Part shown: in pieces, positions 5,366 to 61,276 of the stretch
Layout of the letters: every line of letters starts with the position of its first letter
How positions within the stretch are numbered: the first letter of the stretch is position 1
Assembly (NCBI GenBank): GCA_001972305.1
Contig: BDDD01000118.1
Span: 146,060-210,059 of the forward strand
Source of the DNA: Cephalotus follicularis
Taxonomy: Eukaryota > Streptophyta > Magnoliopsida > Oxalidales > Cephalotaceae
DNA length: 64,000 nt
Direction of reading: 5' to 3'
The notes under the pieces: generated by a model
Told to the model about the DNA's origin: nothing
What the model saw: only the letters and a program-made list of their open reading frames with translations
The model's database searches: none
Translations under genes and position numbers: made by a program

Positions 5366-5665
5366 AGAAGACGTCGACGCCTTTGGTTGAAGGTCGACGT
5401 GTTTTGTAAAAAATTACGTTTTGCTGAGATGCGCATAATGAACATCGATCCTTTTGATGAAATACGTCGATGTGTTTTGATCCAACATTCACAGGTCGAA
5501 TTTGCACAAAGACATCGATGCGTTTAGTGAAAGGCATCGATGTCTTTCTAATAGAATTTGAAGGTAGGTTGCAATCCCAGAAAGGACATCGATCCGCACC
5601 AAAAGACATCGATGTGTTTACTATAAACCCAGAAAATACATCGATCCTTATGAAAGACATCGATG
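5366..5665. repeat. TCGA palindrome array in the A1 3' LTR
   Basis: About nine ATCGAT or GTCGAC cores lie in 300 bases, most inside forms of AAAGACRTCGAYGTCTTT (for example 'aaagacatcgatgcgttt' near 5508, 'ggcatcgatgtcttt' near 5525, 'aaagacatcgatgtgttt' near 5602). The 5' LTR copy is at 18719-19022 and holds a perfect 18-bp palindrome at 18881-18898. Confidence 0.85.
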
Positions 5666-5872
5666 CTTTTCACTCTGTTTCTGCAGAATTTGTCAATTCT
5701 TCAATCTTTACTCATTCAAGCTCCAATTTGCACGACTTTGGGTAGTATTCATGCACTTTGGCCCTTTTGCTCTTGTACCTGAAAATCAATATAACACAAC
5801 CAAAGTAGTCTATTACAAGAATAAAAATATCACCAATAATTCATCAAAAACAACACATTTTTATGCTAAACA

Positions 5873-5886
5873 AATACCCCCATACT
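5873..5886 (-). other. 3' polypurine tract of A1
   Basis: The minus strand reads AAGTATGGGGGTATT directly before the LTR start TGTTTAGC. This is the plus-strand priming site used in reverse transcription. The same motif sits before the A2 3' LTR at 16411-16425. Confidence 0.8.
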
Positions 5887-6347
5887 TAAACATTGCTTGT
5901 CCTCAAGGAAACAAAATAAAAAGCTAAAACAAAACATAAAAACAAAAACATACCAGAAACTAAAAACAAGAAAACATAAACAAAAACCAAACTCACTTTC
6001 GTAGGAATCACGATTGCATTTAGCTTATACAACAAGCCGTTAAACCCCTAGGTGGCCCTAGTGGACGAGTTTAGTCTCGTGAGTGTTTTTCAAGCGAATA
6101 AACACACAAAATTCAGTTCATCAAAACTTTGAAAACAGGTAAAATGTATCTGTACTCAAAATTCATAGAACACCGGCATACTTGAATTTTATTATCTCGT
6201 TCCAAGTTCTAGAATCAAAACACATCTCAATTAAGAAACTTTTAGCAAATTATTTTATTATTCCACCATTAATGACCAATCAAGATATGTATTCGTAACA
6301 ACACAAAATCCTACTTCGGAGTCAGGCAAAAGAACTTTAGCACTCAC

Positions 6348-6349
6348 AT

Positions 6350-6384
<35 letters not shown>
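6348..6384. repeat. (CA)n(TA)n microsatellite
   Basis: A run of CA dinucleotides passes directly into TA dinucleotides. The matching place in A2 (15911-15960) has an expanded TA/GT run. Confidence 0.9.
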
Positions 6385-6385
<1 letters not shown>

Positions 6386-6520
6386 CTTCATTTTTGCTTT
6401 CTTTTCATTGAACATGTTCTTCCACTCTTTTCCATCTGAAATGTCATGGATGGAGCAAACACCAGACACTCAAAGTACTAAGTAGCTTCAGATTTCTACA
6501 AACTTTAAATTCGTGCAATG

Positions 6521-7112: not shown

Positions 7113-7211
7113 ATCTTGCATTGTCCTCTATGCAATAGAAACAAACTAAAGAAACAACAATGCATGATCACAAAAATATAAGAACAAAGGGGTAGGGTGT
7201 ACCGAATATAA

Positions 7212-8474: not shown

Positions 8475-9263
8475 AGAGTCGGGATAAATGGTCAGCTACC
8501 AAATTCTCAGTTCCTTTCTTATCTCGAATTTCAACGTCAAACTCTTGAAGGAGAAGAACCCACCGGATAAGACGCACTTTTGCATCCTTTTTACTCATGA
8601 GATACCGAATCGCAGTATGATCAATATACACGATGACATGTGATCCTAAAAGATATGATCGAAATTTCTCAAGTACAAAGACCACAGCTAAGAATTCCTT
8701 CTCAGTGGTCGTGCAATTCAATTGAGAGTCAGAAAGGGTCCTACTTGCATAATAAATGACGTGAGGCAGTTTATTCATTCTTTGGCCGAGAACAGCTCCA
8801 ATGGCACTATCAGAAGCGTCACACATAATCTCAAAAGGCTCAGTCCAAAATGGTGCTTGAATGATAGGAGTGGAAGTGAGCTCCTTCTTTAAGCGGTTAA
8901 ATGTTACAAGGCACTCGTCAGAGAAAACAAAATCTTGATCTTTCGCTAGGAGCGAAGTCAAGGGACGTGCTACCTTGCTAAAATCCTTGATGAACCTTCG
9001 ATAAAAACTAGCATGTCCGAGGAATGCTCGGATGTCTTTGACATTGCTAGGTGGAGGCAAATGCATAATGACTTCTATTTTCGCTTTATCGACTTGAATT
9101 CCTTCTTTTGACACTACATGCCCAAGAAAGATCCACTTTTCCCAATTTAACACCAAATTCTTCTCTCTACTTCTTTCAAGCTCTAATTTTAGGTGATGAA
9201 GGCATGCAGAAAATAAGGAACCATGCACAGAAAAGTCATCCATAAATACTTCAAGAAAGCCTT
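8475..9263 (-). pseudogene. A1 RT C-terminal half and RNase H
   Basis: It begins just inside the insertion site of the solo LTR with the RT active site [11 protein letters not shown], then [19 protein letters not shown]. RNase H follows with [40 protein letters not shown] and the end motif [10 protein letters not shown]. This part is free of stops. The N-terminal half of RT lies on the other side of the solo LTR, at 9926 onward. Confidence 0.88.
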
Positions 9264-9925
9264 TGTTTAGCATAAAAATGTGTTGTTTTTAATACATTAT
9301 TTGTGATATTTTTATGTTTGGAATAGACTACTTTGGTTGTGTTTTAATGATTTTCAGGTACACGTGCTAAATGACCAAAGTGCAAGAATACTATCCAAAA
9401 GTGTGCAAAATTGGAGCTTAAAGTATAAAGATTGAAGAAATGCCAAATTCTGCAGAAAATAGACCAAAAGCGTCGACGTCTTTCCTTAAAAGTCGACGTC
9501 TTTTCTGGAAAAATGCAGCAATCTTCAAAGAGCTATGAAAAAGAAGTCGACGTCTTTTTACAAACACATCGACGCCTTTCATAAAGATCGACGTCTTTCA
9601 ACATTCACATCGATTACGGTGAGTTTCTATACCCTAAAACCGTTTCTTTATTGTATATTCTCTTTACTTTTATTTCTTGCATGCTTTATTTCTTAGTATT
9701 TTAAATTCAACGTTTTCAATTATCGTAGTTTTTATTTCTAGTTTTGTTTATTTATTTTACTTTGCATAATTAGGAGTAGTTTGTTAGATTATCTCAAACA
9801 TTGGTATACTTCGCCTAGGTTGGATAAATTACAACTAGTTTACGTTTCCCTGCGTTCGACCCCTTACTGCATGATCCGTGCACTTGCGGCTATAAATTTT
9901 AAAACATTCTTTTTAACAGTGAACA
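9264..9925 (+). mobile_element. Short solo Athila-type LTR inside A1 RT
   Basis: It starts TGTTTAGCATAAAAATGTG and ends TTTTTAACAGTGAACA, the termini of the A1 LTR, but is in the opposite orientation. The flanks are GCCTT (9259-9263) and GTCTT (9926-9930), a target duplication with one mismatch. At 662 bp it lacks about 0.8 kb of LTR middle, joined near 9617 ('catcgattacg|gtgagtttctatacc'). It keeps the TCGA array at 9466-9610. It splits the RT domain directly before the catalytic FMDD. Confidence 0.85.
9466..9610. repeat. TCGA palindrome array in the solo LTR
   Basis: Six cores lie in 145 bases, mostly GTCGAC type ('agcgtcgacgtctttcc', 'agtcgacgtcttttc', 'gaagtcgacgtctttt', 'acatcgacgccttt', 'gatcgacgtctttc'). 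The last core, CATCGATTA, sits exactly at the deletion joint of this LTR. Confidence 0.85.
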
Positions 9926-17789: not shown

Positions 17790-19223
17790 TGTTCACTGAT
17801 TTAGAAAGAATGTTTTAAAATTTATAGCAGCAAGTGCACGGATCATGCAGTAACGGGTTGAACGCAGGGAAATGTTAAACTAGTTGTAATTTATCCAACC
17901 TAAGCGAAGTATGTGAAATCAAGGTTTAATTATGAAAACTACTCCTAATTATGCAAAATAAAATAAATAATCAAAATAGGAAATTAAGACTTCGAGAGTT
18001 AAAAACATTGAATTCGAAATACCAAGAAATAAAGCATGCAATTTTAAAACAAATCAAAACAATGAGTAGGAGTGAAGAAAATATATAATTACAAAGCGGT
18101 TTTAGGGTATAGAAACTCATCGTAGATTGTATTGAACAATTCCATTTTAATTGAACGATCATACCTTGATAACCAGCTGCAGCTAGATCGATACGGGGTG
18201 CGACAGTGATGACAAGACGTATGAGTAGTCATGCTAGGTCTATATGAAGTATGGCATCGACGGCAAGACGTATGAGTAGTCATGCTAGGTCTATACGAAG
18301 TGTGTTCCTTGTGACAAACCGTATAACTAGACTCCGTTGATTGAGTTAAGCACCACTTATTCACCAACTTTTAGCTTCACCGACAAGATGTTTGTGGATT
18401 TTAATCAGGCAGACAAAGTGTGTGTGAAGGCATAAATATTGAAGATCAAATCAAATATTCAAGGATTTTTATTGATGGAATTGAAACAATAACAATCTAG
18501 GCTTGTTCTTCCATAAAACTTTGAAGAGTTTAGCTACTAAACATTTGAAAACAAACTACAATTGATAAAGAAGAAAATAGGGTTTCTACAAGCCTCTCTC
18601 CTCAATTTGGCCGGCCTTGCATTGTTTTTATATTACATAACTGATCAAAAACGGAAATAAATCAATCGTGGTTATAAAATATGGCAAAAAATCTAACTTT
18701 CCATTTCTGCTGCAGAAGAAGACGTCGACGCCTTTGATTGAAGGTCGGCGTGTTTTGTAAAAAATTGTGTTTTGCTGAGATGCGCATAATGAACATCGAT
18801 CCTTTTGATGAAAGATGTCGATGTGTTTTGATCCAAAATTCACAGGTCGAATTTGCACAAAGACATCGATGCGTTTAGTGAAAGACATCGATGTCTTTCT
18901 CATAGAATTTGAAGGTAGGCTGCAATCTCAGAAAGGACATCGATCCGCACCAAAAGACGTCGATGTGTTTACTATAAACCCAGAAAAGACATCGATCCTT
19001 ATGAAAGACATCGATGCTTTTCACTCTGTTTCTGCAGAATTTGTCAATTTTTCAATCTTTACTCTTTCAAGCTTCAATTTGCATGACTTTGGGTAGTATT
19101 TATGCACTTTGGCCCTTTTGCTCTTGTACCTGAAAATCAATATAACACAACCAAAGTAATCTATTCCAAGCATAAAAATATCACTAATAAATCATTAGAA
19201 ACAACACATTTTTATGCTAAACA
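17790..19223 (-). repeat. 5' LTR of A1 (1434 bp)
   Basis: It is the near-identical partner of 4470-5872, with a small insertion near 18660 ('caatcgtggttataaaatatgg' region). The TATA element is at 18624-18632 and the TCGA array at 18719-19022, including a perfect palindrome at 18881-18898 that is mutated at one base in the 3' LTR. Confidence 0.9.
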
Positions 19224-19915
19224 AGGAAATTTGTATACTAAGCCATGGGCCAAAAGCTATGTACTAAGCTATGAGAAACAACAGTGTACTATTGTAATGC
19301 CATGGACCAAAGACAAAAAGTAAACAACCTATAATTAAGCAATGATAATTAATGATGGCATGAACCAAGAACCCAAAGTTGAAACGAATCTGTATAAGAA
19401 AGAGAGATTGGCAGAGTATTTTGGTAATGCATGGTAACCGAGAAAGAAGAAAATCGTGTGACCAAAACCTATTGTTTAAACAACCATTAATAATCATGCA
19501 TACTCACGGAAATATTCACAATTGAAAGATTAAGAAACAACAATGTCATATTGCACAAAAATTAAAACAAAAAGAATGAAGTAGAAAACCTGTATGGTCA
19601 GTAGCGGCAGCGTGAAAAGAATTAGGGATAAGAGTTTGGGGTTATAATTGTAGGTTAGAAAGATGATAGGTATTTGAATAGGAATAGTGTAGGTATTTTT
19701 GGACTTGATTAAATATTATATACTTAACAATAAAATTCTCTAGGTCATGGCTAATATCATATTAGCCCAATAGATACAAACTAAACGGCCCACATCAAAA
19801 CAAATTAAACCGTCCAAACTAAAATTATCAAGCCTGATATAAATACCCAAAATAATAAATAAATAATTAGTATAATAACCAAACAAAATAACACACAAAC
19901 ATATGAGGTATTACA
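19224..19915 (-). repeat. 3' LTR of G, inner part
   Basis: It resumes after A1 (AGGAA) and ends CATATGAGGTATTACA next to the polypurine tract. It is AT-rich, with no TCGA array and no ORF. It should match the part of the G 5' LTR that lies beyond 43854. Confidence 0.75.
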
Positions 19916-21862: not shown

Positions 21863-22350
21863 GATTTTGAAAAATAGCTCTTGCAATATACAAGAGGGGG
21901 GGTGAATTGAATATTGATGTAAATATCAGAAAATAAAAACTTTAAAGTAAAGAGTGTAAAGAAAGAATAATTCTCTGTTTTAGAGTGGTTTGGCTAACTC
22001 TTGCCTACGTCCACTTTTCCCAAGGAAACTCCTTGAGTTTCCACTCTCTTGAATTGATTATGGTAGCAATTCGTTACACCTTACACTTTTGGTGATTGAA
22101 CTCAATCCCAAGGATTCACCTCTTTTTCAAGTGTTTGTAAATGTGTTTACAAAATAACCTCTTAATAGGTTTGATCTAGCTTATAATACATAACACAATT
22201 GGAATCACAAGGAAGAACTCAAAGGATAGAGCTATGAAGCTTTTTGAGAACACTTTAGAGCACTTGAGCTTTGTAGAATGAGATTTACTAGAATGCTTGA
22301 ATTCTTTGTTTCTTGATTATTGTGTCTGTCTCCTGAAGGTTTTGGATCTT

Positions 22351-22360
22351 CCTTTATATA
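22351..22360 (-). promoter_or_regulatory. TATA box of the Sirevirus LTR
   Basis: The minus strand reads TATATAAAGG; the partner is at 32783-32792. In the transcription sense it lies about 90 bases after the last unit of the TCGA array, so the array sits upstream of the promoter. Confidence 0.6.
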
Positions 22361-22448
22361 GACAAAAAAGTCTTTGTAGCCGTTGCATAAATCATGGAGA
22401 TTTAAGATATAAAAATGATGTGTTGATGCAACTCTGTTTTTATGCATG

Positions 22449-23055
22449 CTGAGATAAAGACGTCGATGTCTTTTGAAAGGAGTCGATGTCTTTGTAGGTT
22501 ACTAGCCGTTGCAAGTGGGTTAACTAGCCGTTCCTTAATTCCCGAGTCAAACAATTTGAAAAGATGTCGATGTCTTTCATGGGCGTTGATGTCTTTTCTG
22601 GGAATGTATCCAAGCATTAGAGGTTATGAGCATTGCATCAATGTCTTCTTGAAGGATCGATGTCTTTTCTGGATTTTGTAGTTGAGTCTTCAAACACATC
22701 GATGTCGAAGGAAAGGGATCGATGTCTTTTGTTGGACGTCTATGTCTTCACATACAAGGATCGATGTCTTTATTCAAAATTGACCTGTAACTTTTGTGCA
22801 TTAAAAACGTCGATGTCTTCTTGAAAAGGGATCGATGTCTTTCTTCAAAAATGGCCTATAACTTTGGTAGCTCAAAGACGTCGATGTCTTCTTCACAAGG
22901 GATCGATGTCTTTCTTCAAACGTGGCCTGTAACTTTGGTATCTCAAAGACGTCGATGTCTTCTTCAAAAGGGATCGATGTCTTTCTTCAAAAGTGGCCTG
23001 TAACTTTGGTAGCTCAAAGACGTCGATGTCATCATGAAAAGGGATCGATGTCTTT
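22449..23055. repeat. TCGA palindrome array with tandem 72-bp units in the Sirevirus LTR
   Basis: About eighteen TCGA/TTGA cores occur. The right part is four tandem units starting near 22803, 22874, 22946 and 23018, each 'aaagacgtcgatgtcttctt', 'gggatcgatgtctttcttc' and 'tggcctgtaactttggta'. The partner array is 32888-33490. A full AAAGACGTCGATGTCTTT is at 22456-22473. Confidence 0.9.
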
Positions 23056-23172
23056 TCTTTACAACTGTCTTTTGCCTTTTGTGAATCTTTCTAACATCTT
23101 GCACATTAAGTGAACTTTGTTAAATGCAAATATGTTATCATCAAAACTAGGATTGAGACTAAAACGTCAACA

Positions 23173-23674: not shown

Positions 23675-24850
23675 TCAGCATTCATGAGGAGGATCGGAAT
23701 CATGAGAAGATTCATCGCCTGAGGTATCTTCGCATATGTCGATTGTCTTGGATGCAGCAAGCTTTCGTTCCAAGCACTTGAGACGTCTTTTGCTGACATG
23801 TAAGTCATAGTAGATTGTGTCTTCTATCGTCTCAAAGTCGGATCGAATAGTCATGTGATCCTTTTCCAAGTTTTCGGGGCGCGAATTTACTTGCTGGAAT
23901 TTTCCTTCAATTGATGCTTCCATCGAGTCGAACCTAGTATTAAATGCATCAAATCGAGCACTCATGAATTCCATCATCCAATCATACTCACTGGTAGAAG
24001 AAGAGCCATGAGTTTGAGCAGGTGGTGCTTCTTGTGCTTCCCAAGGAGGGATCTCTTCATGTTCTTCTCTCTCAATTTTCTGGCCTTGATCACTTTTTGG
24101 ACAGTAAGTCCAATTGCCGTCTTGTTTCTTCCAGCCCATGCGGTTCAAAGTGCTTTTGTTGTAGGTATCTTCCTTCTTCAGCCTAGTTCCAATCTCCCCT
24201 TCAAGACGTAAATCATGGTATTGGAAGATTTTGGTTAAGATGCAACCAAAAGGAAGGACGAATTTCTTCTGTGAAAAGGCACGCACCATCGTGTGGAGCA
24301 TAAGCAGTGGATAACAAAACTCGATGTTGGAAATGATGCAACACATTAGGAATGCTTGCATGCTAGTGAGTTTCGCATAACCACCACCGGTAGGAAGAAA
24401 TTGACCAACAATGAGGTGATGTAGAAGACGATGATCAACCGAGAGCTTGTTTGTGCAAAGGGCCATGTTGGGATGAATGTTTGGATCATTAGGGTAGAGA
24501 ATTGATAAAATGTTGTTTGGGTGAAAACCTTCGACTTCCGGCCATTTCTTGTATTCAAAGATATACAAGCCGTTGTGAGGAATTTGAAGAATTGATGCAA
24601 GAATCCTATTATTTAAAAAGATTCTTTGACCTTTGACAATTGAAGAGAGGGCAAATTCTTCATGAGGACTAGAAATAATCCTTAAGTTCATGTAAAACTC
24701 TTTGACAAGCTTGACATAAAACATGTCCTGAATTTGAACTAAAAGAATGAGATGTAATTCTTCTAGCCAAGAAACAAACGAAAACTCATTGGAACAAAAG
24801 GATAAATCTATGTTCCTCGCACCCATTACCCTTTTGTCAACAAATGCAAC
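23675..24850 (-). pseudogene. Sirevirus env-like ORF, main part
   Basis: It is an open frame of about 390 codons after the solo LTR. The core is NVAFVDKRVMGARNIDL, FYMNLRI, SIVKGQRIFLNN, RILASILQIPHNGLYIFE, KKWPEVEGF and LSVDHRLLHHLIVGQFLP. This fits the 'putative plant transposon protein' family found after pol in Sireviruses. A hydrophobic stretch lies near ISNIEFCYPLLMLHTMV. The C-terminal third is a Glu/Lys-rich, probably coiled-coil region (KFQQVNSRPENLEKDHMTIR) ending DPPHEC. No clear signal peptide or fusion peptide was seen, and its role is unknown. Confidence 0.75.
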
Positions 24851-26204
24851 ATTGCTGTAACACCCCACGCCCGCAGGGTGGACACGTGGCATTACTCTCA
24901 ATCCAATACACAATACAATGGTCGGGACTAGCAATATAAAAATGCAAAAAAACTTAAAACTTTGCAATACATATCATTTACGGAAGATACAATACACTGA
25001 TCCATACAATCGATGCAATACAAATCTTTTACAATACTAGTCTTTTACAATACATAACAAAACAATCCTCTCACTACAAAGTCTCAATCAGCTCTGCGAT
25101 GCCCAAGCAGTCGAGCGATTGAATTGAGTCTTCAATCCTTCTGTCCGCTGCTACCTGCCGCCCTACCTATGTCGCACACAAAGGTACAACACAGCCCCAC
25201 CTCGAAGGATGGGGTTAGCCACACTGGCTAAGCAAAAACCCAATGCAGCATGTATGCATCTACAATGTGCAATATCAGTGACAATCTATACAATATCAAT
25301 GTGAAGTGTACGATATCAATGCATGACATGGCAAATGCATGTGTACAGTTGGCGATCAAACTACCCGTATGACAATGGCCCAACAGAGCATATGGGTAGG
25401 ATCTATAACAATCAATCAATCAATAGCAGACATTCGATGGCGGTGTATAAAACACCCAATCAATCAATCAATATCCTATAGAGCATGCGACCGGGTCAAT
25501 ACAATGTCAATCGGTTAGCGGTGATCAATCCCACGGAAGGTAACCCTTCAAAAGGGTGGGAGATCTATCTACGGTTTCCAGATTGATCAGGTCTGGGACT
25601 CATAGATCTTCCTTCCTATGGCTGGGTCAATACAGTCTCGATGAGCTAAAACCGAGGGAGCTACGGCCTCAAGGGAGCACCAATCGATAATCAATCGGTA
25701 CCGCTCGTCAGCGGGTCAATGCAATACAATAGATGAAATGATCGGTGGAATAGGTGGACAGAGTCAACGACCTAACATGCCGACACGAATCATAAGGTCG
25801 CTCTATAGGATCCATACAATGCAATCAATCAATCAAGTCAATACAATGTGGGGTAAAGTCAATAAGTGGTGGTGTCTAATGGAGAAATGGGAACGTGCGT
25901 CCATCGTACCGACTTAGGCACGCAACAACACTCACGACTCAAGCAATCGACCGATGTATCAATACAATGTCGAAGCAAGGCCAATAAGTGGTGGTGCTTA
26001 ATGGAGGGATGGGAACGTGCATCCATTTTACCGACTTAGACTCACAACAACACTCATGACTCAAGCAATCAATCAATTAGTACAATCATTAAAACTGTTT
26101 TCAAACACTTGAACACCTCAAGTGAGGCTCCGGTCAAGTGGCGATGTGAAAAGAAGTGGAAAACTAGCTTTAAAACGGTGAAAAACTCATTTCAGTACAT
26201 TAGG

Positions 26205-26540
26205 TGTCGATGTCTTTGGTGAAAGACATCGACTCCTCTTTAAAACGGTGGAAAGACGTAGATGTCTTTGAAAGACGTTGATGTCTTTCCCTATTTATGT
26301 AGAGAACTAGCCAAAGACGTCGACGTCCTTGGAGAAAGGCGTCGACGCTTTTCAATAAAAACAGCCTGAGAATGTTCATCGATGTTCGGCATCAATATCT
26401 TTCCAGGGGAGAGACATCTCGAGGCAAAGACGTCGACGTCTTTGAAAGACGTCGATGTCTTTGCTGCAGAATCAAGGATATAGCACTCAGATGAAAAATA
26501 CATCGACGTCTCTGGGCTAAGGGTCGATGTCTTTCCCGGG
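26205..26540. repeat. TCGA palindrome array in the L2 solo LTR
   Basis: About twelve cores occur, including the perfect 18-bp palindrome AAAGACGTCGACGTCTTT at 26426-26443 and 'aagacgtcgacgtccttgg' near 26313. Several cores are TTGATG or TAGATG, decayed by one base. Confidence 0.88.
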
Positions 26541-26634
26541 CAGAGTCGATTTTTAGGTAGAAAATAGGGCCAATCTCAAGCCAAAATCCAATTAAAAGCT
26601 ATAATGGTGGAAGATGGAGGCTGCCAGCAAGAGG

Positions 26635-26666
<32 letters not shown>

Positions 26667-26667
26667 A
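26635..26667. repeat. (GA)n microsatellite
   Basis: A nearly pure GA run sits in the L2 solo LTR. The short ORFs rich in SLSLSL on the other strand are artefacts of it. Confidence 0.9.
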
Positions 26668-26909
26668 TGAGAGAGAATGAGAATGGGAAAAGTGAGAGTA
26701 AGGAGAGAAAGAATTGACTTGTATAGTCAATTCGATCAACTCTCCGAAACTCGGCCCAAAATCCCAACTATACATGCATGCGATCAATACAATATCAATA
26801 GGTATAAGAATACCTCAATTCGATACAGTTCAGTACGGTCCAATATGGTACAATACGGTACGATGTATGCATGAACAGTACCAAAGGGAATTCGGGTCAT
26901 CACAATTGC

Positions 26910-27072: not shown

Positions 27073-27572
27073 TTGGAATGCACAACAAACAAGAGCAAAA
27101 ACAGGAAGATAACAGGAGTTGAAAGAAGAAAAGAAGAGTTTGAGGAAGAGAGATGATATAAAAGAAGTTGTAAGAGCGATTAGAACGATTTTTTAAAAAA
27201 ATTTAGAGGGAGAAAAAATTTTCAGAAATGTTCAGGGTGAGGGTAAGGTGAGAGTGGAGAAGGGAGTCGACGTTTTTATGAAGAAAATTGAAGAAAGGTA
27301 AAAGACGTCGATGTGATTACAAAGGCATCGACGCTTTCAAAAACGAAAGGCATCGATCTTAAGAACAAGAAAACGATGCGTTTTAAATAACATCGATGCG
27401 TTATGGAAGAGATCGACGTGTTTTAAAGACATCGATGTCTTTGAAAAGAGATCGACGTGTTTGGTCAGAAAATCAAGCAGATCAAGCTTAAAATAGAACA
27501 AGTTTAAAAGCAAGATATTCAAACACATCTTACTATCTATTTAAGCAATCACCAACATTACCATCAAAACAT
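27073..27572 (-). repeat. Spacer between Sirevirus pol and env-like ORF with a TCGA array
   Basis: It is non-coding. At 27265-27465 it carries about nine cores, including the perfect AAAGACATCGATGTCTTT at 27425-27442, with the variant tail 'cgacgtgttt' several times. This is the only array in the window that is outside an LTR. Confidence 0.85.
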
Positions 27573-37650: not shown

Positions 37651-38529
37651 TGTAACACCCCGCGCCCACAGGGCGGACACGTGGCATTACACTCAAACCA
37701 TTATACAATATAATGGTCGGGACTAGCAATATAAAAATGCGAAAAAACTTAAAACTTTGCAATATATATATCAGTTGCGGAAGAAACAATACACTGATCC
37801 ATAAATACGACACAATTCCTTTACAATACAAGTCTTTTCAATACATAACAATCTTTCAATACGATATCTCAAAACAATACACTCCAATTTCCACTACAAA
37901 GTCTCACAACCAGCTCCTCGGTGTCCAAGCAGTCATGCGATCAATAGTCCTCAGTCCTTCTGTCCACTGCTACCTGCTGCCCTACCTATGCAGCACACAA
38001 AGGTACAACACAGCCCCACCCCGAAGGATGGGGTTAGCCACACTGGCTAAGCAGAAACCACATGCAGCATGTATGCATGTACAATGTGCAGTATCGGTGA
38101 CAATTTATACAATAACAATGTGCGGCGTACAATATCAATGCATGACATGGCAAATGTACATGTACAATTGGCGATCAGACTATTCGTATGACAGTGGCCC
38201 AACAGAGCATACGGATAGGATCTATAACAATCAATCAATGGCAGAAACTCAATGGTGGTGTATGAAACACCTAATCAATCAATCAATATCCTATAGAGCA
38301 TGCGACCGGGTCAATACAATGTAAATCGGTTAGAGGTGATCAATCCCACGGAAGGTAGTCCTTCAAAAAAGGGTGGGAGATCTATCTACGGTTTCCAGAT
38401 TGATCAGGTCTGGAACTCATAGATCTTCCAGCCTAGGGCTGGGTCAATACGGTCTCGATGAGCTACAACCGAGGGAGCTACTGATATCGTTAGGGAGCTA
38501 CAGTGCCAAAGGGAATTCGGGTCATCACA
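37651..38529 (-). repeat. L2 LTR, internally deleted, first copy
   Basis: TGTAACACCCCGCGCCC to GGGTCATCACA. It is co-linear with the solo LTR at 24856, then jumps from 'gagggagctac' to 'tgatatcgttagggagctac' near 38481, omitting about 1.2 kb including the TCGA array. The same junction is in the copy at 41159-41857. The flanks AAGAT and AAACT are not a convincing target duplication. Confidence 0.85.
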
Positions 38530-39674
38530 AAACTAGATCAAGAGACTGAGAAGGCACCCCAAGATACCGAACAAAAGACTTAGCTACCACAGAGTGAGTT
38601 GACCCAATATAAAAAAAAAACAAACGCCTTACAGTTATCAATAAAAAGAAATCCTGAAACAGTACTTGGAGCATCTGTATCCTCATGAGTGGTCATAGAA
38701 AACACCCTGCTTCCCGCATTACGCTGCCCAGCATCACCACCATTTCCTCCTCTAACATTAGCACAAGGGTTAGTGCACTCCTTAGCAAAATGACCCACCT
38801 AACCACATAGGAAACAAGCCCCAGTAGCCCTATAACATAATCTACTAGGATGTTGCCCTTCACAAGTCTCACACATGGCAACGAGAATAAGGTCGGGGGG
38901 TTACACCGCCTGACGGTCTTGAATCACGCCTTTGATCAGGGCCCTGCTGTTGCTATTGACCTCCTCCTCTATTTTGATTATTTCCTTGCGTTGGCTGTTG
39001 ACCACCATGACCTTTGTTCCACTGACCACCCAAACCCTTATTATGCTGACTTGAGTTCTGACCTTGATAGTGACCCCTGGTTCTTTCCCTTCCTCCTTCT
39101 TGCCTGGCCGCCTAAAAATCTAGTCATTCCATCTCGATATTTTTGGCAGCATTGGCCATTTTTGACACATAAGCAAACTTCACATTAATCAACTTTCCTC
39201 TGAACCTGTAATGAAGTCTCCACTTGAACTTTTATGCTTGTTCAGCCGCGGTCCCTACCGCAGGTCCAGCAAAACTAGCCAATCTAGTGAACCTAGCCAG
39301 GAAATCTGTAATTATCTCATCATCTCTCTGTCTGATAGTCACAAATTCCCGAGCATACACCTCTTTATCAGAAGTTGGGAAGTACTGCTGATAAAAGGCC
39401 TCACAAAACCCAGTCCACAATAGAGAGTTGATGAACTCTTCACCCTTAGCCACTCCCAGGGTCTTCCACCAATGTTGTGCATCACCCTCCAATTTGTAAG
39501 CGTCCAGCTTATCCTTTTGAACATCATCATACCCCAGCACTTCGAATAACTTTTCCGTATGAGCTATCTAGTTTTCAGCATCTATAACGGTCGATGTTGA
39601 ATTGAATGTCTGAGGCCTCTGTTTCTGGAATCTCTCCTGGCAGATGTGTACTAGAATAACGGGCTGATCCTCAG
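38530..39674 (-). pseudogene. Duplicated block of G protease/gag
   Basis: On the minus strand it has the gag middle (YKLEGDAQHWWKTLG, FYQQYFPTSDKEVYAREF, FLARFTRLASFAGPAV), a CCHC-like knuckle (CETCEGQHPSRLC, then a degenerate CFLCG*VGHFAKEC), and the start of protease. It is a copy of 41858-43002 in which I found no difference. The gag N-terminus is missing: at 39674 the sequence jumps into the L2 LTR. Confidence 0.88.
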
Positions 39675-40480
39675 AGGCAAAGACGTCGATGTCTTTAGAA
39701 AGACGTTGATGTCTTTGCTGCAGAATCAAGGATATTGCACTCGTATGAGAAAGACATCGACGCCTTTGGGCTAAGGGTCGACGTCTTTCCGGGCAGGGTC
39801 GATTTTTCTTGTAGAAAATGGGCTAATCTCGAGCCAAAATCCAATTAAAAGACATTCTTTGAAAACCAAAGTTTACAATCAATCATTTGAGGTTAGTAAG
39901 ACTAGTTACAACCTTCCAAATTCGATTTCAATCATTCAATTTAACAATTAGGTCAAGGGTTTGCTATAAACCCTAAAAACCTCAATTCAATCACTCAATC
40001 ACTCAATTCAATCAATCAATCAATAAAACAGTAGGCAATTCAGTAAAGAAGTCCTACAGATCACTGAAGCTTCAAAAGTTGAGCTAACGATCAATCAATC
40101 GGCTGAAAACGCCCAATTATCTGCTACTTTCTTGTTCAATCGGTAAGCCACCACTTGTAATCACTGTCCTTGTCGATGGGGATGCAATTCCGGCTGTAAC
40201 GGAGGAAGATGGAGGCTCCAGCTAGAGAGAGAGAGGGAGAAGGATAGAGGGAGAAGAGGAAATGTGAATAATGAGAGAAAGAGAAAGAATTGACTTAAAT
40301 AGTCGATTCGATCAACTCTCCGAAACTCGGCCCAAAATCCCGACCATACATGCATATAACCAATACAATATCAATAGGTATAAGAATACCTCAATACAAT
40401 GCGGTTCAGTACGGTCAAATACGGTGCAATACGGTACGATGTATGCATGAACAGTGCCAAAGGGAATTCGGGTCATCACA
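39675..40480 (-). repeat. L2 3' LTR, terminal part
   Basis: It starts 'aggcaaagacgtcgatgtctttag', homologous to 26423 of the solo LTR, and ends GGTCATCACA before a polypurine tract. It holds a TCGA array (39678-39800, with AAAGACGTCGATGTCTTT), CAATCAAT-type repeats around 39990-40025, and a GA-rich stretch at 40220-40285. It is longer than the matching part of the solo LTR, which has lost about 0.3 kb. Confidence 0.82.
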
Positions 40481-43854: not shown

Positions 43855-46839
43855 TGTCACACCCCGCTTTTGATAAACACACATAAAGGTGGTAAAGGGA
43901 ATTAACATTGAGATTCAGCTCATGCAAAAACCGTAAAATTTAAACTTTTCAAACAAGATGTCAGTTGCGGAAGCATTAAACTCATCAGCTGAAAAAAAAC
44001 ACGTAACGACCATCCCATACTACACGCTACCCAATACAAGTCTGTCATAGTTAAAAGCCCACAAAACGGAGCGTAATCCATAATACATTATCCAGTAACA
44101 TCAAAAGTCTAGTAACTGGAAAATACAGTACACAACACACAAAGGGGACATAACCCCTAGTAAAACATTATTAAAAACTTGTACTTCATCCATGCTGATT
44201 CCCAAGATGGTTCACTGCATCAATCTATAAAGTAGGGGGTTAGCCTTTGTCCTCAATTGGCTAAGTCATAAAAGTAGTTTGGGATCAACATTACATGCAT
44301 GTCATGAAATGTATGCATAGATAATGCAGTGTAGTAGAAAATACCAGTTTATATATATATGAAAAAATATATAAGTTAGCAGAACAGTAAAATAACAGTA
44401 GGGACATATATATGAAAATATATGTATGCAATACAGTACAATAGTAACCCGGCCAGGACTACATCAACAGGCACAGTAATGTCCGAGAAGGACTAGCAGG
44501 CAATACAGTAAGTCAACAAAGGGACTAAAAAACAGGCAGGCAGTATGTGCAACGCTGCCAACTCCTGGCCCCACATTACACACCCACTTCGGTCCCTTCT
44601 CCAGGCAACCAAGCAAGACAACGGTACAGTACAATGGGTTACCCAGCCAACTCCTGGCCCCTTGGTCAACCCTACCAATAGCCAACGCTGGCAGTCCACG
44701 CCATGCAACTAGTGACTCAAGCACAAACACAGCAAATTCACAAAGCAAATAGTGAATAGTCACAGTATACAGTGCAGTAAGCGGTACAGTAATGATAGTT
44801 AGATCAACAACAAGCAGTTTATTTCAAACTATTTTCGAAAGTCGTAAACATTTGAAATATGTATTTCCAATAGATAGAAAATACTTTAAACCATTTTAGG
44901 AGCGGAAATTACTTCCTCAGTATGTTCAAAAATATAACAATACTCATTTTATATTTCGTACACAAACATAGTAGTTTTCAAACTCATGTGTGTATTTCTA
45001 AATCAATATAACAATTCAGACATCAGAGCAATTCATAAACAGTTATTATATAGGTAGTAAATAGTATGTATGAAATGTATACAAATGCTCTAATGCATCC
45101 TAATCGAAATCAGGATCGTTTCGTATCATTAAGTAAGAAAACTTCCAAACAGTACAACAAGGCGTCGATGTCTATTATTAGGAGTCGATGTCTTTGTCCT
45201 ATAAGCATCAACGCGTGAGTCCTTGGCGTCAGCGCTTTCCATTGTTCGAAGACGTCGATGTCCAACTTTATACGCATCGACGTTCAAGGTATGGAACCTT
45301 AAACGTCAGTGTTTTGCCTAAGGCATCGACGCGTTAAGGTAGGAACCTTAGGCGTCGATGTATATTACGTCAATATCCAAGCAGATGACCCAATGGCGTC
45401 GATGTTCCTCAAAGGCATCGACGTGTTTCGAGCGCCAGTCGTCTTCTTCCTCACGACGTGACAAACAGTAACCAACATAGTCCATATACATGCAAGACAA
45501 CATGTAATCAAGCCAGAAACCCAACATGCAAATACATATCACATACCCAGCATAACATGGCATTGATCCAGTGATAAAAAATAGTTCAATAACTATGGAA
45601 ACTATGCACAAAAACCATTGTCCAGGCATGAATGTTAAGCTCAAAATTACGATAATGGCTTCCCCTACCTCTTTATTCCAAGTTAGGAACTAGAATGTGT
45701 TGGAACACGGGAGGGGTGCCGGTCGATTTTGGGTCTAGGATGCAAGTGTGTATAATTTTAATTTTTCAAAAAACACCAAGACACGAAGTCAAGGTCACAC
45801 TTACATCTTACTACCAAAATCTATGCGCCTAGGATCTCCGTTTAATATTCAGTCGAACAAACTGTAAAATCAAGCATACATCCACTTAACCGAAATCGAT
45901 TCAGTAAACATTAAAAACATAAGATTAGGAACCATACCAACGTTGGCGGCTCCATCACTTTGCCGCTACACGCTTGCCAAAGAAACTGCCGTTTAACGAC
46001 TCCACTGCCGGTTTCCGGCCAGTCCATGAAAACTTCAACCAAGACACCAACGGACTCCAAAAAAAACTGCTCGACCCATTTCTGGTGGAGACGCATCGAG
46101 AAGCGCCCCGGAACAAGGCGAATAGCAGCGGTGACTCACTGAGTTCAGACTCAGCATGACTCGGTCATCGCGCCACAGACCGATGGCCACATATGTGGAC
46201 CACAAACACCCGATCTACACATCGGTGGCTAAGACTCGGCCTGGAAAGCGGCGAACAGTCGACGGAGAGTCAACCCGCTCAGCGAAAACAATATCGCCGA
46301 GACACCGCACCGCCACAACCAACACCTACAAAGCACAGTTAACACAAGCCAATGCAAGACTCGCAGTGAATCGGTGGGGAACACCGAGTCAAGAAGCACT
46401 ACAGCCTGAGTCGCCAAGCTCTACTCAGAAGTGCGAAACCGGCTGAAAATGCAACGAAAAAAGCCTAGTCTAGGGCCAAAATAGGCAGAGCCAAGCATGG
46501 CTCCACCTACCAAGACACCTGCGACGGAAGAGAAGCCGTGACAGTGGGTGACGCGTAAAGCATCGGGCCAAACCAGGGAGAGATAGAAGAGAAAAATGAG
46601 AGACAAAGAGAGAGAGGCTTACCGTGGATGAAAGCCAGCCTCTTTCCCCGGCCACTGACGCCGCTCGCGCCGTCATCACCGGCCAGGAAGCGTGCCTGGA
46701 GCGCTAGTGCACGCATAGCGTGTGCGTTCTCTCTCCTGGTAGAGCGCCCGTGCACCAAAAACAAAATGCCAAAGTCCATCTCTTTTGTTTTTCTCTTTTA
46801 CTATAAATAACATAAAACTTCTCTCTTAGTTTTAAATTA
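43855..46839 (-). mobile_element. LTR of a Tekay-type family (L4-like), right end unclear
   Basis: It starts TGTCACACCCCGC, the reverse of the L4 and B LTR ends, so its orientation is minus. It shares the block 'ggggttagcctttgtcctca' at 44233 and the 'cctacctctttattccaagttaggaact' region at 45666 with L4 and B, inverted. It has a TCGA array at 45163-45435. Positions 45950-46760 are GC-rich with many GACTC/GAGTC motifs. No LTR end was recognised before the copia-type LTR at 46840. Confidence 0.6.
45163..45435. repeat. TCGA array in the L4-like LTR, decayed
   Basis: About ten cores occur: 'ggcgtcgatgtctatt', 'agtcgatgtctttg', 'gacgtcgatgtccaac', 'gcatcgacgttcaagg', 'ggcatcgacgcgtt', 'ggcatcgacgtgtttcg'. 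Arms are strongly diverged and no full 18-mer remains. Confidence 0.8.
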
Positions 46840-50302: not shown

Positions 50303-52984
50303 TGTAACACCCGGTATTTTCTTTATCGTAATATTTCGTTTTAAGATGTAATCTTATGCTTGAATTAACGAAAATGTTGGAGATTTCAACCCCAATGATG
50401 TTTTCCAAACCCTAAATATTGTATTGGGGAAAGAAATGTGTATGTTAAACCAAAAACGGCACGGTTTTGGGACAATTGCATCGCCTATGGGAACCAAGAT
50501 GCACGTGAATGCATGGACATGCACGTTGATGTAGGGTAAAGACATCGACACCTTCTTATGAAAGAGGAAAAGACATCGACGTCTAAGGAAAGACGTCGAC
50601 ATCTTTGAAAACAATATCAGTCACGTTATGAACTGACAAAGTAACGTGCAAGAGGGAAGGAATTAGGATCCTTGCAGGCGCCTTAAGGCACGGGAAGGAG
50701 ACGTGTTGATCATGCATAATGGCCTCTTGACCTGCATGACTGAAGAAGGAGGAAGAACATGACAAGTGTGGGTGTGCATGTAACCTGCAGAAAACATGAG
50801 AAGGAAACAAAATGAAATTCACTGGGAAAGAGGGAGAGAACACGAGAGTGTTCATTGAATGCAGGGAGAAAGAGGGAGAGGGAGCCATCTGCATAAGAAC
50901 AACCCCCTCCCTACCTCTCTCTCTCGTTTAAAACACCAAAGGAAAGGAAGAGGAGGAAACGAGTGAGTGGGAGATAGAGAGAGCCACCATTGTTGAGCTT
51001 AATTGGAGCTAGAGACTTGGAGCTCGTGGATTAAAGCTGCTGAGCGGATCTTGGAGCTGCTGTGGCCAGGAATCTTGGAACACAAAGAGGTCAACTTACA
51101 AGGTTTCTAACTTGAAACCAGAGGTAGGGGAAAGTGATGATTCTTATACATGCATTTTGAGTTTTAAAGATAATGAATGCCATTGGTGAATTGCATGTTA
51201 ATGGATGAATTGTAGTCTCTAGACTTGTTGTGATGACCACTGTGATGTATGGAGTGAACATGCATGTGAAAATTACATGAATATTTGAACTAGTTTATGT
51301 AATGGATGATTTGGGTAATGACCTGGTGTGTTAAAACTATGGAAATAACGTTCTGGGATGATTAGACGTCGACGTCTACCTAAAGACGTCGATGTCTTCG
51401 CATGTGAATGAAAAAGACATCGATGTTTGAGTAAAAACATCGACGCCTTTTCTGGGTATTCATAGAATAGTAGTGTTTACTACAGATGGTGAATTGGCCA
51501 CTTGTGGTTACATGTTTGTTTACGAATTCGTGTTCTGGTTACATATCCTGATAACCAGTAGCATGTCTTACGCCTTGAGAGGGTGAGTTTCACTTATACG
51601 AGGGTTTAAGGGCCGGATTCTTCCCCCTAGAATCAAGATTCACTAACTGATACCTCCTGGTATCATAAAGACATCGATGTCTTTGGAAAAGCATCAACGT
51701 CTTTGGTCCAAAAATTCCTGGGAATAACTGTTCAAGAAGTTGGCGCCTCAAGGTAAAGACGTCGACGCCATAGGAATAAGCATCGACACTTATCCTTATG
51801 TTTGGAAAAATCTCACTCGGATGGGACCCGCTAGACCCGAAACGACTCTAGAAACGATCCTAGATGCATTATGAGCATATGTTTGCATTATTACTATGAA
51901 TTGCATTATGGTTGATTTCTAAAAAGTGTTAACCATTTTGAAAAGCTTGTATGATTATTATAATCATTATTGTACGAAAATGTATATTTGTCAACATATG
52001 AATATATATTTTTTCGAAATGAGTGGGGAAAGTATTTTCCAAAGACGGAGAAATATTTTAAAGGATTGGTTACACAATTCAAAATGTATTGTTTTAATTT
52101 TTACAACTTATCACAACCTGAGAACGGAGTAATATATTTTAAACAAATATATTTGATCAAGTAATTATATGTTATTGCTTGACTTGTACTGTACGATGTT
52201 TGTGCTTGTTGATTATTAGCCGTCGTGCTAATAACCTGTTGATTGTTTGGCCGTCGTGCTAAGCAACCTGTACGGAGGACTTACTCCAAACCGTTCGCAA
52301 ATGGGGATGGGGTAAGAGTGCATGACGTTGGGGCCAGGAGGTGGCGACGGTCATGGCAACTGGTTTGTCTGGTTCCTTTTGGGACATACTTACTGCTTGT
52401 GTTTATGTAGCCTTACGAGGTTATACCTGTACTGTGAACATGCATATACTTTATACATGTATACACTGCGATATATATACTGTAATATATATATACTGTA
52501 CTGCATCATAATGCATTCATTCATGATACTCATTATCATATACCTCGAACTGTATTTATGAGTTTATTCACTTAGCCGAGTGAGGACAAAGGCTAACCCC
52601 TACTGTAACAGATTGATGGAGTGGACATGATATGGAGCATGCAAGGAGACTTAAAGAGAAGACTGAATTGTTTCTCTTATTTCTTGTACCGAGTTAATGA
52701 ACATTGGTTATGTTAATTGTATCATTGTAACGTGGTTTACTTCATCCTGTACTGTTTTATCACGCTCCGTTATGGGCGATCGACTATGTTGTTGGGTTTT
52801 ATACAAACTTGTTGGGTATCACGTAGTATGGGATGCGTGATACATATTTAAATTCAGCTTATTTCATGATATTGCTTCCGCTATTGAAGATTTTTGTTTA
52901 TACGTTTTATCGCATAAGCTGAATTATATTGTGTTGATTGCCTTACCGCTTTAATGTTGTCCTCTTGGAAAACGGGGTGTGACA
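50303..52984 (+). repeat. 5' LTR of B (2682 bp)
   Basis: TGTAACACCCGGTATTTTC to GAAAACGGGGTGTGACA. TCGA arrays lie at 50541-50610 and 51364-51792, the second with a perfect palindrome at 51667-51684. CATGCA-type hexamers lie at 50500-50790. No clear TATA box was found; a CT-rich tract with 'ctctctctcgtttaaaac' at 50918 may mark the promoter zone. Confidence 0.95.
51364..51792. repeat. TCGA palindrome array in the B 5' LTR
   Basis: Nine or so cores in two subclusters (51364-51450 and 51666-51792): 'agacgtcgacgtctacc', 'aagacgtcgatgtcttcg', 'aagacatcgatgtttga', then AAAGACATCGATGTCTTT at 51667-51684 and 'aagacgtcgacgccatagg'. The 3' LTR partner is 58788-59212. Confidence 0.88.
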
Positions 52985-52987
52985 GAG

Positions 52988-57657: not shown

Positions 57658-57689
57658 TATTGTTTTAATTTCGAGGACAAAATTTCTTG

Positions 57690-57702
57690 AATGAGGGGTG
57701 GA
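57690..57702 (+). other. Polypurine tract of B
   Basis: AATGAGGGGTGGA lies directly before the LTR start TGTAACACCC, after the usual 'cgaggacaaaatttc' motif. Confidence 0.85.
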
Positions 57703-60494
57703 TGTAACACCCGGTATTTTCTTTATTGTAATATTTCGTTTTAAGATGTAATCTTATGCTTGAATTAATGAAAATATTGGAGATTTCAACCCCAATGATG
57801 TTTTCCAAACCCTAAATATTGTATTGGGGAAAGAAATGTGTATGTTAAACCAAAAATGGCGCGGTTTTGGGACAATCGCGTCGATGTCTTTGGAAAGACG
57901 TCGACGCCTATGGGAACCGAGATGCACGTGAATGCATGGACATGCACGTCGATGTAGGGTAAAGACATTGACACCTTCTTATGAAAGAGGAAAAGGCATC
58001 GACGTCTAAGGAAAGACGTCGACGTCTTTGAAAAGAATATCGGTCACGTTATGAACTGATATAGTAACGTGCAAGAGGGAAGGAATTAGGATCCTTGCAG
58101 GCACCTTGAGGCACGGGAAGGAGACGTGTTGATCATGCATAATGGCCTCTTGACCTGCATGACTGAAGAAGGAGGAAGAACATGACAAGTGTGGGTGTGC
58201 ATGCAACCTGCAGAAAACATGAGAAGGAAACAAAATGAAATTCACTGGGAAAGAGGGAGAGAACACGAGAATGTTCATTGAATGCAGGGAGAAAGAGGGA
58301 GAGGGAGCCATCTGCATAAGAACAACCCCCTCCCCACCTCTCTCTCTCGTTTAAAACACCAAAGGAAAGGAAGAGGAGGAAACCAGTGAGTGGGAGATAG
58401 AGAGAGCCACCATTGTTGAGCTTGATTGGAGCTAGAGACTTGGAGCTCGTGGATTACAGCTGCTGAGTGGATCTTGGAGCTGCTATGACCAGGAATCTTG
58501 GAACACAAAGAGGTGGACTTACAAGGTTTCTAACTTGAAACCAGAGGTAGGGGAAAGTGATGATTCTTATACATGCATTTTGAGTTTTAAAGATAATGAA
58601 TGCCATTGGTGAATTGCATGTTAATGGATGAATTGTAGTCTCTGGACTTGTTGTGATGACCACTGTGATGTATGGAGTGACGATGCATGTGCCAATTACA
58701 TGAATATTTGAACTGGTTTATGTAATGGATGATTTGGGTAATGACCCGGTGTGTTGAAACTATGGAAATGACGTTCTGGGCTGATTAGACGTCGACGTCT
58801 ACCTAAAGACATCGATGTCTTCCCGTGTGAATGAAAAAGACATCGATGTTTGAGTAAAAACATCTACGCCTTTTCTGGGTATTCATAGAACAGTAGTGTT
58901 TACTGCAGATGGTGAATTGGCCACTTGTGGTTACATGTTTGTTTCCGGATTGATGTTCTGGTTACATATTCTGATAACCAGTAGCATGTCTTACGCCTTG
59001 AGAGGGTAAGTTTCACTTATACGAGGGTTTAAGGGCCGGATTCTTCCCCCTAGAATCAAGATTCGCGAGCTGATGCCTCCTGGTATCATAAAGACATCGA
59101 TGTCTTTGGAAAAGCATCGACGTCTTTGGTCCAAAAATGCCTGGGAATAACTGTACGAGATGTTGCCGCCTTAGGGTAAAGACGTCAACGCCATAGGAAT
59201 AAGCATCGACGCTTATCCTTCTGTATGGAAAAATGTCACTTGGATGGGACCCGCTAGACCCGAAACGACTCTAGAAACAATCCTAGATGCATTCTGAGCA
59301 TATGTTTGCATTATTACTGTGAATTGCATTATGGTTGATTTCTAAAAAGTGTTAACCATTTTGAAAAGCTTGTATGAATATTATAATCATTATTGTACGA
59401 AAATGTATATTTGTCAACATATGAATATATATATTTTCGAAATGACTGGGGAAAGTATTTTCCAAAGACGGAGAAATGTTTTAAAGGATTGGTTACACAA
59501 TTCAAAATGTATTGTTTTAAGTTTTACAACTTATCACAACCTGAGAACGAAGTAATATAGAAATGTTTTAAAGGATTGGTTACACAATTCAAAATGTATT
59601 GTTTTAAGTTTTACAACTTATCACAACCTGAGAACGGAGTAATATATTTTAAACAAATATATTTGATCAAGTAATTATATGTTATTGCTTCACTTGTACT
59701 GTACGATGTTTGTGCTTGTTGATTATTAGCCGTCATGCTAATAACCTGTTGATTGTTTGGCCGTCGTTCTAAGCAACCTGTACGGAGGACTTACTCCAAA
59801 CCGCTCGCAAACGGGGATGGGATAAGAGTGCATGACGTTGGGGCCAGGAGGTGGCGACGGTCATGACGACTGGTTTGTCAGGTTCATTTTGGGACATACT
59901 TACTGCTTGTGTTGATGTAGCCTTACGAGGTTATACCTATACTGTGAACATGCATATACTTTATACATGTATACACTGCGATATATATACTGCAATATAT
60001 ATATACTGTACTGCATCATAATGCATTCATTCATGATACTCATTATCATATACCTCGAACTGTATTTATGAGTTTATTCACTTAGCCGAGTGAGGACAAA
60101 GGCTAACCCCTACTGTAACAGATTGATGGAGTGGATATGATATGGAGCATGCAAGGAGACTTAAAGAGAAGACTGAATTGTTTCTCTTATTTCTTGTACT
60201 GAGTTAATGAACATTGGTTATGTTAATTGTATCATTGTAACGTGGTTTACTTCATCCTGTACTGTTTTATCATGCTCCGTTATGGGCGATCGACTATGTT
60301 GTTGGGTTTTATACAAACTTGTTGGGTATCACGTAGTATGGGATGCGTGATACATATTTAAATTCAGCTTATTTCATGTTATTGCTTCCGCTATTGAAGA
60401 TTTTTGTTTATACGTTTTATCGCATAAGCTGAATTATATTGTGTTGATTGCCTTACCGCTTTAATGTTGTCCTCTTGGAAAACGGGGTGTGACA
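57703..60494 (+). repeat. 3' LTR of B (2792 bp)
   Basis: Same termini as the 5' LTR but 110 bases longer. Most of the excess is a tandem copy of about 89 bases at 59561-59649 ('aaatgttttaaaggattgg' again) and an extra TCGA unit near 57884-57905 that is absent from the 5' LTR. A perfect palindrome is at 58012-58029 (mutated at 50587 in the 5' LTR) and another at 59090-59107. Confidence 0.95.
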
Positions 60495-60745
60495 TGAATG
60501 GTATCCCCGAACCAAGTAAAATGGTTCCTTTTCATTCTTCCTTATGGGCTCCTTGCCCTTGGAACTGGATCTCCTTGATCTATCCCTCTCAGAGGTTGTT
60601 TCAGAAGAAGGAATAGGCTTCACAGATTGTTTTGATCCAGACTGGTCCAAAACTACCTTATCAGTCCTCGACTGTGTGCCAAACAACTCCTCAAGTTGTA
60701 TCAACACGACACATAAGGTTTGTGAAAAATACATAGCGTTTTCCA
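60495..60745 (-). pseudogene. Unidentified coding remnant, right of element B
   Basis: The minus strand is open: FSQTLCVVLIQLEELFG, KQSVKPIPSSETTSERDRSR, SSKGKEPIRKNEKEPF and YLVRGYHS. The Ser/Lys/Glu-rich composition could be a gag spacer of a gypsy element or a host protein. It is cut on the left by B and on the right by the truncated Athila LTR. Confidence 0.4.
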
Positions 60746-61276
60746 GAGCTAAATGACCAAAGTGCAAGAATACTACCCAAAGTTGTGCCAATTAGAGCTT
60801 GGAAGTGTAAAGATTGAAGAATTGACAAATTCGACAGAAACAGAGTAATAAGCGTCGATATCTTTCATAGGGATCGACGTCTTTTCTGAGTTTACAATAA
60901 ACGCGTCGACGTCTTTGGCTAAGGATCGATGTCTTTTCTTGAAAATGCAACTTATCTTCAGGAGCTATGAGAAAGGGATCGATGTCTTTCATCATAGGGA
61001 TCGACGTCTTTGAGCAAAATTGACCTGTAACTTTTGGAACAAAAGACATCGACGTCTTTCATCATAGGGAATGATGTCTTTCAAGCGCATCTCAGCAAAA
61101 CGCGATTTTTACCAAAAGACATCGACGGCTTTCTTAAGGGATCGACGTCTTCCTCTGCAGCAGAAATAGAAAGTTAGATTTTTTTGCCAGTATCGTTTCC
61201 CTGCGTTCGACCCGTTACTGCATGATCCGTGCACTTGCGGCTATAAATTTTAAAACATTCTTTTTAACAGTGAACA
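60746..61276 (+). repeat. Partial 5' LTR of C with TCGA array
   Basis: It starts 'agctaaatgaccaaagtgc' (as 9370 in the solo LTR) and ends TTTTTAACAGTGAACA. The array at 60848-61152 has about ten cores ('gcgtcgatatctttc', 'gggatcgacgtctttt', 'gcgtcgacgtctttgg', 'aaagacatcgacgtctttc'). At 61015-61036 it has 22 bases found unchanged in the Sirevirus LTR. The middle of the LTR is deleted near 61193. Confidence 0.88.

Follow-up and report, generated by a model that had tools for sequence, protein, structure and literature searches.

In a 64,000-nucleotide stretch of the genome of the Australian pitcher plant, Cephalotus follicularis (contig BDDD01000118.1, positions 146,060 to 210,059; hereafter the window), one 18-bp near-palindrome is arrayed in the non-coding DNA of both copia and gypsy retrotransposons, including their long terminal repeats (LTRs). 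The 18-mer follows the pattern AAAGAC(A/G)TCGA(T/C)GTCTTT, and its commonest form on the transcribed strand is AAAGACATCGACGTCTTT. With moderate confidence, we interpret it as the probable binding site of one diffusible sequence-specific protein, the arrays having been amplified independently in several lineages, where they would serve as LTR enhancers. The candidate binding protein is most likely a host transcription factor.

A shared array of this 18-mer had been reported in a first-pass annotation made from the window alone, and the array is real. Scanning with the search pattern AAAGACRTCGAYGTCTTT at up to three mismatches gives 81 sites in the window, compared with a mean of 0.12 and a maximum of 1 in 100 dinucleotide-preserving shuffles. 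Exact fits to the degenerate pattern number eleven: the six perfect palindromes named in that annotation (18881, 26426, 27425, 51667, 58012 and 59090), all of which are present, and five further sites (22456, 26445, 32888, 39679 and 61042) that are one pair off palindromic. The C. follicularis assembly (1.577 Gb in 9,746 contigs) contains 51,413 exact sites, compared with 187 for the reversed-pattern control and about 0.15 expected from base composition alone, a density far from chance; copy number weights these genome-wide totals, so that sites are not independent, and repeat counts may be lower bounds. The 187 reversed-pattern sites are themselves above chance, and another repeat may carry the reversed pattern.

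The motif was also sought in 25 further genome stretches (239,806 non-N bases), comprising 20 of 10 kb taken at one fixed position in chosen contigs and 5 picked from 100 random draws. These contain 55 sites at up to three mismatches and none of the reversed pattern, and arrays of at least three sites occur in 5 of the 25. Eight additional loci of 2.4 kb were selected for holding exact sites. Loci L001–L004 stand outside the site counts and coding counts of the 25 stretches, and the letter counts and the mismatch-tolerant distance counts exclude L002–L004, which represent second or neighbouring sites in the element of L001. None of the 81 window sites falls in coding-like DNA, nor does any of the 136 sites in the window and the 25 stretches together, 76,377 of whose 303,508 bp are coding-like; the earlier statement that gag and pol lack the motif is borne out. 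By contrast, the LTRs of three paired-LTR elements (10,967 bp together) hold 54 of the 81 window sites. Searches with Pfam and tblastn identified a copia gag (PF14223) and reverse transcriptase (RT; PF07727) in the Sirevirus element and gypsy-type RT/RNase H in the Athila element and in the element designated Tekay-like B, in agreement with the claim that one motif is common to copia and gypsy LTRs. The superfamily level alone was checked in this way; the lineage names Athila, Sirevirus and Tekay-like are ones that the first-pass annotation and we presume from general element anatomy.

The letters that vary within the 18-mer are informative about what is being read. In 190 sites found with positions 6–7 and 12–13 all left open, the left pair is CA in 74, CG in 53 and TG in 10, other letters making up the remainder, with GA (22) the commonest of them; the right pair is TG in 80, CG in 61 and CA in 6, the rest being other letters. 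Genome-wide, single changes of the G7>A / C12>T type number 37,431 (obtained by subtracting 9,899 and 4,083 from 51,413), compared with 375 (167 + 208) of the C6>T / G13>A type, and the corresponding double changes number 9,899 and 13. The first-pass annotation had ascribed the variation of the outer CpGs to deamination of methylated sites. That origin predicts CA and TG in equal frequency and was rejected on these counts. Rather, the counts indicate that C6 and G13 are held, whereas positions 7 and 12 are free as purine and pyrimidine, respectively. Within the TCGA core, C9 and G10 are each present in 141 of 146 sites.

The site had also been described as a perfect palindrome, which is accurate for 13,982 of the 51,413 exact sites, about 26,000 being expected, but the remainder are one pair off. 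Positions 7 and 12 avoid matching: they are unlike in 37,431 sites, compared with 25,378 expected from base frequencies, and complementary in 58 of 146 sites, compared with 74.5 expected. When the 107 sites of 14 arrays, some of them relatives of one another, are read on the sense strand, the unlike sites are A7/C12 in 61 cases and G7/T12 in 7, the sole array with the opposite bias being an internal (leader) array of the Sirevirus (1 to 2). The commonest form of the 18-mer is therefore not a perfect palindrome but a near-palindrome with a direction, AAAGACATCGACGTCTTT.

Neighbouring sites are regularly spaced. For each genome spacing search, distances were taken from the first 50 places listed, all of which lie on contigs C1–C3. 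Two half-matched sites separated by 0–12 bp occur at 23,620 places genome-wide, compared with 79 for the control pattern, and in all 50 listed places the sites are 1–4 bp apart, which sets their centres at 19–22 bp. Separations of 5–34 bp occur at 18,617 places (control, 68); centre distances in the 50 listed are 41–43 or 46–52 bp and never 23–40 bp. Separations of 35–64 bp occur at 22,652 places (control, 73), with 29 of the 50 listed at a centre distance of 70–72 bp. In eight arrays falling into six groups, to which the Sirevirus and Tekay-like B contribute two arrays each, nearest-neighbour distances have a period of 10.20 bp (n = 40) and all-pairs distances a period of 10.30 bp (n = 52), each reached by 0 of 1,000 jittered controls. 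Removal of distances up to 25 bp leaves a period of 10.35 bp (n = 22), which is matched by 18 of 1,000 jittered controls, and pooling of relatives gives 10.40 bp (0 of 500 controls). The 27 distinct distances in the genome listing, for which no control was run, peak at 10.10 bp. A period near that of the DNA turn suggests that proteins sit along the same side of the helix.

To compare what surrounds the sites, alignments with the motif masked were made for 55 pairs from 11 regions and scored against shuffles, the rows for L008 being uninformative. Five within-lineage pairs exhibit z of 34 to 87. Pairs between Athila, Sirevirus, Tekay-like L and Tekay-like B score at about the shuffle level, apart from weak exceptions considered below, and the transfer of array blocks between lineages that the first-pass annotation had entertained is not clearly seen. 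The leader array of the Sirevirus aligned to the LTR of its own element gives z of 0.0, which indicates that the two arrays of one Sirevirus have little besides the motif in common. When diverged copies are compared, the sites themselves are better conserved than their surroundings. In the Sirevirus of the window (W), conservation is 0.929 at sites versus 0.755 around them in the comparison with L029 (reverse comparison, 0.889 versus 0.755) and 0.839 versus 0.690 in that with L012 (reverse, 0.892 versus 0.701). The values are 0.861 versus 0.737 for the Tekay-like L2 LTR and L006 (reverse, 0.865 versus 0.727), and 0.852 versus 0.749 for Athila A1 to Athila C.

The orientation, phasing and constraint of the sites look like those of protein-binding sites, in line with the earlier suggestion of a regulatory role; protein binding and its effect, including a single shared protein, siting on one face, cooperative binding and raised transcription, are what we infer from the sequence. 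In the mechanism that we propose, one diffusible factor would recognize sites in the LTRs of several lineages, local duplication within each LTR would enlarge the arrays, and arrays would be retained through the higher transcription that additional sites give an element, with sites on the same face being bound cooperatively. Were arrays to grow in this factor-driven way in each lineage, their sharing across superfamilies would represent convergence on a common factor and not an inherited block. More tentatively, and as a possibility that we hold short of an even chance, one protein, either made by the host or encoded by an element and exploited by others, may read the 18-mer as a common oriented code in three or more lineages, copia and gypsy both among them, coupling their expression, with the phased arrays built independently. 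If true, a single factor can be the point on which unrelated copia and gypsy elements converge and for which they compete, with bursts that could be synchronized as a result, and the pattern hints at rival genome parasites using one regulatory switch. As a long, defined sequence with tens of thousands of copies in one plant, the 18-mer offers a direct handle for finding the factor.

Several observations weigh against a common binding protein acting through independently built enhancer arrays. A weak excess survives masking in three comparisons: the Sirevirus leader with Athila C (z of 4.0) and with L012 (z of 4.4), and L012 with L006 (z of 2.9). Constraint is slight in 3 of 10 comparisons (Athila C to A1, 0.792 versus 0.772; L006 to L036, 0.889 versus 0.866; L032 to L036, 0.861 versus 0.845). 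When up to three mismatches are allowed in the fetched DNA, centre distances of 25, 29–32 and 39 bp occur too (11 pairs, compared with 73 at 19–22 bp). Phasing is weak in Tekay-like B (R of 0.22) and in the type represented by L016 (R of 0.20), and the neighbour distances take in tandem 22/49-bp repeats of one Sirevirus array. Finally, five copies of the Tekay-like L2/L4 family (L4, L006, L008, L032 and L036) have a TATA-like box at LTR position 128–180, about 520–940 bp downstream of which lies the array, so that the array may be transcribed there. In the 2.7-kb LTR of Tekay-like B, about 230 bp separate the last site group from the nearest TATA-like stretch beyond it (52003), which was not recovered by a stricter TATA pattern.

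Four other explanations were weighed against a host-made binding protein. The factor might be encoded by one mobile element as an activating or anti-silencing protein that other lineages use in trans, as with VANC of the Arabidopsis VANDAL elements; we regard this as unlikely. VANC targets (PMC5735166) are likewise short motifs, arrayed in a single orientation within non-coding mobile-element DNA and amplified in tandem, and their binding protein is known and element-encoded; however, the VANC21 target motif is described as rare in other elements, unlike the 18-mer, which is a different motif and is common to several lineages. The Sirevirus of the window does have an extra open reading frame (ORF), matching PF20167, directly downstream of its own internal array, and close relatives of it are numerous in the genome. 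Yet Pfam returns PF20167 alone for this ORF and no known DNA-binding domain, a Cephalotus relative whose structure was predicted with 29 others has a mean predicted local distance difference test score (pLDDT) of 36, too low for a usable structure, and the frames listed for Tekay-like B are gag-pol and two antisense frames only. A host silencing target, in which a host repressor recognizes the motif and the many families reflect the host's choice of a common sequence, is improbable. The observed/expected CpG ratio of four arrays (0.98 to 1.47) exceeds that of the window (0.69), and the arrays could be methylation targets; however, CpG in the arrays is not depleted, and elements would be expected to shed the site of a repressor instead of multiplying it and retaining it in pairs. 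It is very improbable that the palindrome acts as a hairpin or cruciform, through RNA or DNA secondary structure. The 18-mer comes close to a palindrome, and palindromic boxes have been described in Sireviruses (PMC2829016), but positions 7 and 12 exhibit no pairing covariation, either in the 146 sites or across the genome, and on the sense strand they are mostly an A–C mismatch (61 of 107).

It is also distinctly unlikely that families acquired array blocks from one another, through template switching or DNA recombination, and that these blocks have hardly any function or none. Some exchange is suggested by three Sireviruses, W, L012 and L029, in which U3 and gag disagree: the similarities in U3 and gag are 0.714 and 0.906 for W–L012, 0.790 and 0.643 for W–L029, and 0.613 and 0.644 for L012–L029, so that U3 was probably exchanged among Sireviruses. 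In addition, at one locus (L034:754–1764), a perfect 18-mer marks the point where the start of a Sirevirus LTR, together with its array, passes into an Athila LTR. The left part of this locus scores z of 31 to 46 against four Sireviruses and about 0 to 1 against Athila, whereas the right part scores z of 91 and 20 against Athila and below 0 against Sireviruses. This is, however, the only copia–gypsy junction found, and of 4,693 candidates, the best 40 of which were scored, the locus itself was alone in matching across it, so that other copies of the junction are possible. The 39 other matches to the junction query start at base 103–122 (the junction being at about 120) and cover the Athila side only, and two more are 30-base pieces. 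One Athila-side match lies on the same strand, 4.3 kb from L034, lacks the Sirevirus part and is probably the other LTR of that Athila. The junction accordingly resembles an assembly join or a local event in the DNA and not a chimera that transposes. Between lineages nothing is clearly in common except the motif, and recombination leaves the orientation, the strict pair spacing and the constraint at positions 6 and 13 unexplained.

With respect to the same locus, L034 was considered as a member of a chimeric copia–gypsy LTR family, which was rejected because, among the 40 candidates scored, only its own locus spans the junction and the neighbour at 4.3 kb is without the Sirevirus side. The Athila part of L034 apparently has no LTR end ahead of the gag-side sequence.

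The kind of arrangement seen here is already known from the palindromic repeated-motif (RM) boxes of Sireviruses, which the 18-mer sequence and its sharing with Ty3/gypsy elements extend. In the study that described them (Bousios et al. 2010, PMC2829016), RM boxes are palindromic, occur in many copies clustered upstream of the LTR TATA box, with more before env, have a CGG-CCG core except in Tnd-1, ACAATCGATTGT, and are presented as Sirevirus-specific. Set beside that account, the Sirevirus of the window is alike in having at least eight dyad-symmetric copies (12 per LTR plus 4 in the leader, at up to three mismatches), in the position of its LTR sites upstream of TATA boxes at 32792 and 22360, a position shared by Athila sites but not by those of the L2/L4 family, and in its extra copies upstream of the env-position ORF (27301–27462). 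It differs in that the core of the 18-mer is TCGA, not CGG-CCG, which Tnd-1 lacks too, and in that the same 18-mer is found in gypsy LTRs (Athila and Tekay-like) and is thus not confined to Sireviruses. In LTR sites of the ONSEN type, host transcription factors are recruited by LTR motifs in response to a known stimulus, and one family has been studied, whereas here one site is common to several superfamilies. A review (PMC12786077) covers plant LTR sites of this heat-responsive kind. Among the titles and abstract openings listed from the open-licence literature on Cephalotus retrotransposons, on shared palindromes and on chimeras between superfamilies, no report of this motif was found, and the exact 18-mer string gave no paper on plant mobile elements.

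The host elements of the window are as follows. Athila A1, on the minus strand, has a 5′ LTR at 17790..19224 with six sites (18718–19021) upstream of a TATA-like box at 18632, and a 3′ LTR at 4470..5873, 92.5% identical to the 5′ LTR, with six sites (5367–5670) and a TATA-like box at 5311. A run of 298 N within the Athila region (15427–15724) is an assembly gap or a masked stretch. Athila LTR pieces in the orientation opposite to A1 (9263..9925, plus strand) carry four sites at 9466–9598, and the alignable LTR part of Athila C (60745..61189, plus strand) carries six at 60867–61132. The Sirevirus, on the minus strand, has a 5′ LTR at 32279..33604 whose 12 sites (32888–33487) all precede the TATA box at 32792, and a 3′ LTR at 21867..23172, 95.9% identical to the 5′ LTR, with 12 sites (22456–23055). 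The best named matches to its gag, at 87–88% identity, are from C. follicularis, and a further match reaches 92%. The arrays of Athila and Sirevirus sit between the LTR start and the TATA box, as the first-pass annotation had proposed wherever such a box is visible, but in L2/L4 the TATA-like box is upstream of the array. That annotation had also assigned the sites to LTRs, which is correct for the Athila, Sirevirus and Tekay-like LTRs but not for the leader array of the Sirevirus (27301..27462, minus strand; four sites at up to three mismatches), which follows the end of pol (27573) and precedes the env-position ORF. This ORF (23675..24973, minus strand) belongs to PF20167, ‘putative plant transposon protein’, and is broken by the L2 LTR at about 24856. 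It has 367 related proteins at E up to 0.001, the closest (92%) being from C. follicularis; every one of the 120 listed, whose identity falls as low as 63%, is from Cephalotus, with many open copies and many with a basic N-terminus.

Inside the Sirevirus lies the Tekay-like L2 LTR (24856..26904, minus strand), with eight sites at 26222–26513. The Tekay-like L4 LTR (37651..40480, minus strand) has three sites at 39679–39767 and a TATA-like box at LTR position 177, about 540–625 bp upstream of the array. An L4-like sequence at 45158..45428, with no strand assigned, has two weak sites (3 and 2 mismatches), and its relative L031 (72%) has an array. Of the eight 2.4-kb loci, three (L030, L032 and L036) are members of the L2/L4 family, L031 is L4-like, L034 is Athila/Sirevirus, and L037 is unclassified; L033 and L035 share an unclassified type seen in L016. 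The array-bearing sequences L016:9009–9122, L033 and L035 constitute an unclassified repeat family, and L016 has no match to the gag or pol proteins tested. Tekay-like B, on the plus strand, has a 5′ LTR at 50303..52984, with sites at 50538–50606 and 51382–51772, and a 3′ LTR at 57703..60494, with sites at 57874–58029 and 58805–59127, the two LTRs being 94.6 to 97.8% identical. The 3′ LTR contains an 87-bp tandem duplication at 59472–59646 (98% matches), which the LTR alignment indicates to be a single copy in the 5′ LTR.

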